Shown: in pieces, positions 13,831 through 58,148 of the stretch
Position numbering within the stretch: the first letter of the stretch is position 1
Layout of the letters: every line of letters begins with the position of its first letter
Origin: Phocaeicola plebeius
GTDB lineage: Bacteria; Bacteroidota; Bacteroidia; Bacteroidales; Bacteroidaceae
Assembly (NCBI GenBank): GCA_022767125.1
Contig: JALEPZ010000026.1
Span: 1 to 64,000 of the forward strand
Direction of reading: 5' to 3'
DNA: 64,000 nt
Program-made: the position numbers and the translations under genes
The notes under the pieces: generated by a model
The model's input: only the letters and a program-made list of their open reading frames with translations
What the model was told of the DNA's origin: nothing
The model's database searches: none

Positions 13831-13835
13831 TGGGC

Positions 13836-13981
13836 GAGCCTGTCCGAAAACCTTGGGCCACCTATCCATCTGTCATGCTGAACGGAGTGAAGCATCTGAA
13901 TGCATCCACTTGCGCTAACAGATTTCTCTCCGTTCGAAATGACAGGGAAAAAGGAAAGCGGAAAACAATTCCCGGACAGCC
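13836..13981. repeat. Dispersed composite repeat element, copy 1
   Basis: The element begins with GAGCCTGTCCGAAAACC and GGCCACCTATCC (13836-13867). It continues with an imperfect palindrome bounded by TGTCATGCTG (13871) and AAATGACA (ending 13944), and closes with CGGACAGCC (13974-13982), roughly inverted to its start. A reverse-oriented copy lies at 40203-40315. Two palindrome-only relatives are at 51040 and 58072, and a truncated copy is at 27487. Confidence 0.75.
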
Positions 13982-14003
13982 TGGGGTGCATGGTAGTCTG
14001 TTC

Positions 14004-27486: not shown

Positions 27487-27546
27487 AGGGGAGCCTGTCC
27501 GAAAACCTTGGGCCACCTATCAAAACCAAGACACCTCGGACAGCCC
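27487..27546. repeat. Dispersed composite repeat element, truncated copy
   Basis: GAGCCTGTCCGAAAACC and GGCCACCTATC repeat the start of the element at 13836. CGGACAGCC about 15 bp later repeats its end, but the central TGTCAT palindrome is missing. Confidence 0.65.
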
Positions 27547-40068: not shown

Positions 40069-40202
40069 TTTGAGAAGATGGGATGAGATATTTTGTTTAT
40101 GAGATAATAAAATAAATTAGTAATTATTATAATTATAGAGGTGCCTCTTTTCTTTCTTTTCCCTGTCATTCGGAATGAAGTGAGGAATCTCTTTCTTTTC
40201 CC

Positions 40203-40315
40203 TGTCATTTCGAACGAAGTGAGAAATCTGTTCGCGCAAAGTGGATGTATTCAGATGCTTCACTCCGTTCAGCATGACAGTTGGATAGGTGGCGCAGGGT
40301 TTTCGGACAGGCTTC
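40203..40315. repeat. Dispersed composite repeat element, copy 2 (inverted)
   Basis: A palindrome from TGTCATTTCGAACGAAGTG (40203) to GCATGACA (ending 40279) is followed by GGATAGGTGG and GGTTTTCGGACAGGC. Together this is the reverse complement of the element at 13836-13944. A half-copy (TGTCATTCGGAATGAAGTG) precedes it at 40164. Confidence 0.75.
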
Positions 40316-40323
40316 CCCTAAAT

Positions 40324-40542
40324 GTGTTCATTATTTCATTAGTCATTATTTCATTAAGACGTTTCCATTCCGTTCAAGTGTTCATTATTTCATTAGTCAT
40401 TATTTCATTAAGACGTTTCCCATTCCGTCGAGGCTCCTCAAATGTTCATTATTTCATTAGTCATTATTTCATTAAGACGTTTCCCATTCCGTCGACGTTC
40501 CTCAAGTGTTCATTATTTCATTAGTCATTATTTCATTAAGAC
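40324..40542. repeat. Tandem array, four direct copies of the 37-bp repeat
   Basis: The 37-bp core shared with 39821-39859 recurs at 40324, 40378, 40442 and 40506 (the third begins ATG instead of GTG). Separators are GTTTCCATTCCGTTCAA in the first gap and a 27-bp GTTTCCCATTCCGTCGA-type sequence in the next two, giving periods of 54, 64 and 64 bp. ORF-track frames here only translate the repeats. Confidence 0.85.
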
Positions 40543-50931: not shown

Positions 50932-51114
50932 ATTGGACATTCTGAATGGAAGGGCATTCCCTACCCAATTGTCATTCTGAATGGGAAGGAATTCCCTACC
51001 AGATTGTCATTCTGAATGGAAGGGCATTCCCTACCAAATTGTCATTCTGAACGTAGTGAAGAATCTGTAAGCACCAGTGTATGTATTCAGGTTCTTCCCT
51101 TCGTTCAGAACGGC
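50932..51114. repeat. Three 35-bp tandem repeats joined to a dispersed palindromic element
   Basis: Units starting ATTGTCATTCTGAATGG or close variants and ending TTCCCTACC begin at 50932, 50968 and 51003 (35-36-bp period). The fourth start at 51038 leads into the TGTCATTCTGAACGTAGTG palindrome (51040-51114), also seen at 58072. The whole pepD-GNAT gap is filled by this block. Confidence 0.8.
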
Positions 51115-51153
51115 AAATAAATTGTTAGCCATTTTTTTTAACAGCATCCTTCT

Positions 51154-58071: not shown

Positions 58072-58148
58072 TGTCATTCTGAACGTAGTGAAGAATCTGT
58101 AAAGCGTTAGTGTATGTTTACAGATGCTTCACTCCGTTCAGCATGACA
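58072..58148. repeat. Dispersed palindromic element between nanH and GH20
   Basis: A 77-bp imperfect palindrome from TGTCATTCTGAACGTAGTG to CCGTTCAGCATGACA. It matches 51040-51114 closely and the centre of 13836-13981 and 40203-40315. Upstream at 57990-58050, TTTTCCAGTAC-like direct repeats fill the rest of the gap. Confidence 0.75.

Follow-up and report, generated by a model that had tools for sequence, protein, structure and literature searches.

A TGTC-tagged, REP-like hairpin dimer in a MITE-like cassette, amplified in the lineage of Phocaeicola plebeius

What kind of element is the palindromic sequence that lies between two convergent genes, a few nucleotides past the stop codon of the left one, in a 64,000-nucleotide stretch of Phocaeicola plebeius DNA (the window), and how did it spread? 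A sequence-only reading had taken it for one full copy of a dispersed palindromic family of intergenic regions and had proposed a genome scan for more. The host genome, a 3.1-Mb draft in 125 contigs that is 92.8% complete and in which the window is contig 40, was compared among 61 genomes of the genus. A BLAST search of the host genome with the 146-nt element gave at least 63 matches, at least about 40 of them covering most of the element, and both counts are lower bounds because 40 of 122 candidates were scored. Full-length copies elsewhere in the genome were 85-97% identical to the one in the window, and the median pairwise identity of 23 full copies was 0.88. The left arm occurred exactly 26 times versus 0 in the control, and a degenerate arm with one mismatch allowed occurred 114 times versus 14. 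Searching for the hairpin unit with the pattern GTCATNNNGANNNNNNNGANNNATC, which leaves all stem positions after AT free, we found 182 units in the host genome versus 0 in the reversed control, and 29 versus 0 in 315 kb sampled without regard to the element. The dispersed family is therefore borne out by the long matches and the units, and the copy placed at 13836 proved complete, at 13837-13982.

From the outside inward, the composite consists of a run of about five Gs, the arm AGCCTGTCCGAAAACC, a spacer of about 20 nt, hairpin unit A, a spacer of about 25 nt, the inverted hairpin unit B, an A/G-rich spacer, the arm AATTCTCGGACAGCCT and a second G run on the same strand as the first (Table 1). 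The outer arms read AGCCTGTCCGAAAAC ... ATTCTCGGACAGCCT, and inside them the two hairpins lie about 25 nt apart with their tags outward; the dimer spacing in the genus Phocaeicola is about 50 nt. Non-coding, 146-150 bp long and bounded by AGNCTGTCCGARAAY terminal inverted repeats, the composite agrees in these three traits with a MITE (70-300 bp). Extra tandem units are present in some copies. Whole copies of 146-150 bp align end to end at unrelated sites; arms and core have spread together.

Table 1. Features of the composite and of its relatives in the window
Feature	Position	Strand	Remarks
Complete composite element: arm, unit A, spacer, inverted unit B, arm	13837-13982	+	full-length copies at unrelated genome sites
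Left arm AGCCTGTCCGAAAACC	13837-13852	+	arm searches; pairs with right arm in predicted fold
Hairpin unit A, GTCATGCTGAACGGAGTGAAGCATC	13872-13896	+	T of tag at 13871
Hairpin unit B, GTCATTTCGAACGGAGAGAAATC	13921-13943	-	2 nt below usual unit length in this copy
Right arm CAATTCCCGGACAGCCT region	13967-13982	+	inverted relative to left arm
Left flank GGGCG (usually GGGGG)	13832-13836	+	possible target-site copy
Right flank GGGG	13983-13986	+	same strand as left flank; possible target-site copy
Arms-only deletion form, 55 nt	27492-27546	+	both ends, no hairpin units; flanks GGGG and GGGGG
Inverted incomplete copy	40165-40313	-	left arm 40299-40313; CGGACAGCC right arm missing; extra tandem unit 40165-40189
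Tags-outward hairpin dimer	40204-40278	.	inside the 40165-40313 copy
Three degenerate 35-bp tandem half-units, then hairpin dimer	50935-51115	+	no arms
Hairpin dimer	58073-58147	.	no arms

The window holds one complete copy, one arms-only form, one copy that lacks an arm and carries an extra unit, and two armless hairpin pairs. The sequence-only reading had located all five and needed amendment in detail. The copy at 27487, described as truncated, is indeed reduced, but by loss of its interior and not of an end; that at 40203, described as full and inverted, is inverted but incomplete; and those at 51040 and 58072 are the bare palindromes described, except that the dimer at 51040 is preceded by tandem half-units (50935-51039), which suggest local tandem growth of units. 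Tandem AT-rich repeats (GTGTTCATTATTTCATTAGTCATTATTTCATTAAGACGTTTCC) at 40320-40450 directly adjoin the incomplete copy. A second arms-only form, with another breakpoint than the one in the window, lies elsewhere in the host genome (C62:11560) within an IS1182 remnant that is itself cut short (C62:11450-12000). Since their breakpoints differ, the arms-only forms look like independent internal deletions.

The hairpin unit has the consensus TGTC-ATnnY-GA-nn-nnn-nn-GA-RnnAT-CT, that is, a 5-bp stem, tandem GA/GA, a 2-bp inner stem and a triloop, mostly GNA. The three free stem pairs were complementary in 73/74, 72/74 and 73/74 units from the host's own loci, compared with 36, 55 and 55 after shuffling; these are counts of copies, not of independent events, and the covariation agreed between four outside data sets and 19 distinct sequences of the host. 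Changes of stem type affect both sides (TTC/GAA, GCT/AGC, CCT/AGG, TCT/AGA), inner stems come as AC/GT, GC/GC, CC/GG or CT/AG, and G-T wobble is nearly absent from the stems, also across phyla and in viral contigs. When GA was left free and complementarity was demanded instead, GA/GA was present in 291 of 296 units, a set collected partly with the GA pattern; it includes the own-genome loci (70 of 72), which were gathered independently of that pattern by BLAST, arm searches or whole contig stretches. The base before GTC was T in 70/72 units of the host and in 200/222 from elsewhere (C in 1 and 16, respectively), and the downstream CT, with T after the C, was present in 207/222 units, beyond which the sequence varies. 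Dimers at the host's own loci comprised 28 with tags outside, 2 with tags inside and 9 in tandem, with similar proportions elsewhere. All 28 tags-outside dimers were heterodimers in stem type; pairing is therefore kept within the unit and broken at the same positions between units. Predicted folding energies of single units were modest and not exceptional, so the case for a hairpin rests on covariation, not on stability. The covariation indicates that the structure of the hairpin is maintained, probably in single-stranded DNA or in a cruciform and not in a strand-specific RNA. The unit may also account for recurrent peptides, such as CHSERSEES and ILSEAKNL, at predicted protein ends.

Copy number rose in the host lineage and differs widely between congeners. 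A scan of the genus counted 150, 114, 107, 85, 84, 83 and 78 units in seven other congeners, 2 in the sister species and closest relative (G013) and 0-5 in many others. The sequence-only reading would have been refuted had all relatives carried copies at identical positions with no sign of mobility; the element is absent from five orthologous intergenic sites of G013, where intergenic DNA is too diverged for exact boundaries to be aligned. Another congener, G030, has full composites at 70-78% identity that keep the same plan, and thus the composite predates the split from G030 and has diverged by species.

The hairpin unit itself ranges much further. A phylum scan returned at least one unit match in 180 of 297 genomes and more than 100 in some, and single matches may be due to chance. 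The exact 26-mer GTCATTCTGAGCGAAGCGAAGAATCT occurred in at least 15 phyla among the matches listed, many of them MAG records in which single assignments may be wrong. Their names include Acidobacteria, Bacteroidales, Chloroflexi, Lachnospiraceae, other Clostridia, Nitrospinota, Nitrospirae, Ignavibacteria, Planctomycetes, Cyanobacteria/Gastranaerophilales, Helicobacter, Poribacteria, Omnitrophota, Delta- and Gammaproteobacteria, Verrucomicrobia, Elusimicrobia, Actinomycetota and a CPR genome. The degenerate unit was found in 118 stretches of viral contigs, some adjoining capsid or other head genes. Several phage-like contigs (for example L477, L465, L524 and L463) carry it beside major head and other structural genes, and in L463 a unit is apparently read in frame within a terminase-like ORF. 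The generic unit was the only form in viral contigs: searches there for the arm and the own-type unit found none, nor did a search of phages and plasmids for the whole composite.

Comparison with known systems places the unit close to one published group. Repeats tagged CGTC or TGTC, which include dRS3 of Neisseria, are reported from five phyla, mostly as tags-outside dimers, with no link to transposases in the available text of Di Nocera et al. (2013, PMC3733652). According to that text, they share with the host unit a GTC tag (often TGTC), A-T pairs at the stem base, mostly tags-outward dimers, frequent heterodimers, an intergenic location and the lack of a transposase gene. However, their stems measure 8-9 bp, their loops 4-5 nt and their tails are mostly CCA-like, whereas the host unit has 5 bp, GA/GA, 2 bp and a triloop, followed by CT; and the five published phyla compare with the at least 15 listed for the exact 26-mer. 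On this published description of stem, loop and tail, as far as the text was available, we filed the unit as a related variant of these repeats and not as a member. GTAG-tagged REPs and BIMEs with their RAYTs are likewise short intergenic palindromes in dimers and clusters, but the host unit has a TGTC tag and no RAYT. MITEs of IS1182-like type are likewise non-coding and about 150 bp long, with terminal inverted repeats that resemble the ends of IS1182 elements in the genus, but no matching autonomous element was found for the host composite. BrickBuilt of Porphyromonas gingivalis (PMC4596501), compared by description only, is also an intergenic Bacteroidales element with internal repeats between small inverted ends, but consists of 23-nt minisatellite bricks instead of a hairpin dimer, and the Bacteroidetes-dominated TnpA-REP subclass 2.6 (PMC6006769) is transposase-linked and a separate case. 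Searches of the published literature by sequence or peptide gave no match, and no Rfam family matched the window above a gathering score. The label REP- or MITE-like given by the sequence-only reading thus holds for the dispersed, intergenic, palindromic nature and lineage-specific copy number of the family, but neither a RAYT nor an autonomous element with the exact arms accompanies it.

The element is real: it combines a REP-like hairpin dimer with a MITE-like cassette and has been amplified in this lineage. We consider it probable that it is a non-autonomous repeat, the dimer riding in the cassette and being amplified in trans. The copies, their anatomy, the covariation, the patchy distribution, the lack of a RAYT and the absence at the sites of the closest relative are solid observations. 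The TGTC-tagged dimer, tags outward, would be carried between inverted arms, which are similar to the ends that IS1182 elements have in the genus (GAGGCTGTCTCAAAAT). An autonomous element with exactly these arms (AGCCTGTCCGAAAACC / AGGCTGTCCGAGAAT) was not found in the 125-contig draft or in the genus; IS1182 elements were rejected as the exact partner, the ends in the genus being related only and the host's own IS1182 remnants having other ends. The genus IS1182 elements (L228-L240) end in terminator-like hairpins of their own (GAGGCTGTCTCAAAAT...ATTGAGATGGCCTCT), and each end may block read-through. Both ends of the composite carry about five Gs on one strand, a direct repeat such as target duplication would leave, in otherwise unrelated flanks. 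Insertion into G runs by a DDE transposase would explain these flanks, and such an enzyme, acting in trans on the arms, is a candidate mover that we regard as an even call. In the host genome the orientation of the G run relative to the core is constant, and the two flanks correlate weakly once their G richness is allowed for (k=6: 38 of 5000 shuffles), so these runs could be part of the element itself. In the composites of G030, both ends have direct C or G runs, whose orientation relative to the core can be either way.

Alternatively, the hairpin dimer alone could be mobile, as a REP- or BIME-like unit moved by a non-RAYT factor, with the arms being a palindromic target or terminator that receives dimers. 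Armless dimers exist in the window and in the genus, the host species has terminator-like stems that share the GGCTGTCC/GGACAGCC motif (L033), and REP dimers nested in longer palindromes are described for two organisms, A. variabilis and H. neapolitanus, in the available text of PMC3733652. However, dozens of copies preserve the arms along with the core and the spacers, and the breakpoints of the arms-only forms differ, as those of deletions would, and do not reveal a common empty target. We judge this alternative unlikely.

We also considered whether the element is functional in the host as RNA, a bidirectional terminator or mRNA 3'-end stabiliser selected at each site, a role that the sequence-only reading had allowed for. 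With genes called by a simple codon-score caller written for this analysis, composites with callable neighbours lay between tandem, convergent and divergent genes in 16, 10 and 8 cases (background 109, 21 and 24), a modest convergent excess (10/34 versus 21/154, p=0.04), and none interrupts a called gene. Copies were at a median of 56 nt from gene 3' ends versus 174 nt from 5' ends, and the whole element folds well as predicted RNA (z=-3.4), with the arms paired. These features would suit an RNA element, but a scan of the complete copy for intrinsic terminators (a GC stem followed by a T run) gave one weak site versus 0.5 expected, and 8 of 34 composites lie between divergent genes. Moreover, strand preference of single units relative to genes was not significant (24:23 across phyla, 43:26 in viral contigs), G-U pairs are virtually missing, and the sister species has no copies at the same loci. 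The evidence does not support a role as a terminator or as a strand-specific RNA, and we hold selection for one at each site to be quite improbable. Because there is no terminator beyond chance and no significant strand preference, tolerated insertion is favoured over a conserved RNA job. At present the host is probably little affected, with copies tolerated between genes and lying closer to their 3' ends.

A RAYT with matching ends, for which the sequence-only reading had suggested a search, was not found. The Y1 transposase domain (PF01797) is absent from the host genome and from the other congeners in which more than 80 units were counted. Y1 transposases are present in six congeners, and no hairpin unit lies beside the RAYT at their loci. 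The RAYT of G016 (L142) is surrounded by its own tandem repeat family of AACCTCTCCGAGGTTGCAGAGTGTGCAAGG type, unrelated to the composite, and the Y1 transposase gene of G054 (L141) lies inside a CRISPR array, with 18 repeats of GTCGCACCCTGCGTGGGTGCGTGGATTGAAAC around it. The surroundings of units from many phyla yielded a single Y1 protein, at a distance of about 4 kb from the nearest unit. A recurrent neighbour gene was rejected as mobiliser; the recurrent clusters that were inspected encode phage structural proteins and no transposase. A classical RAYT-mobilised REP, its transposase lost or in the missing 7% of the draft, was already disfavoured and is very improbable, as the REP-like size, dimers, intergenic location and the Y1 genes of congeners are set against these findings and the lack of a GTAG tag.

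Returning to the composite non-autonomous repeat, the hairpin pair would be an older and wider repeat family, given that armless dimers also exist, and the version with arms and core a later derivative. More tentatively, and with considerable doubt, the 25-nt GA/GA hairpin may be one trans-phylum selfish repeat family, more mobile than any host lineage, carried by phages and copied by a non-RAYT process (for example, hairpin-dependent copying of single-stranded DNA at replication forks); here a transposon-like cassette would have captured the hairpin, and the two would have been amplified together.

RAYTs account for most REPs, but not for the transposase-free repeats with a GTC tag. The GA/GA hairpin provides a sharp, searchable signature, made of stem covariation, near-invariant GA/GA and a dimer spacing of about 50 nt in the genus. 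With copy numbers from 2 to about 180 between close relatives and presence in many phyla and in phage contigs, a hunt for the responsible factor, through copy-number association or phage transfer, is directly feasible, and this repeat is well suited to testing how repeats of its kind spread.
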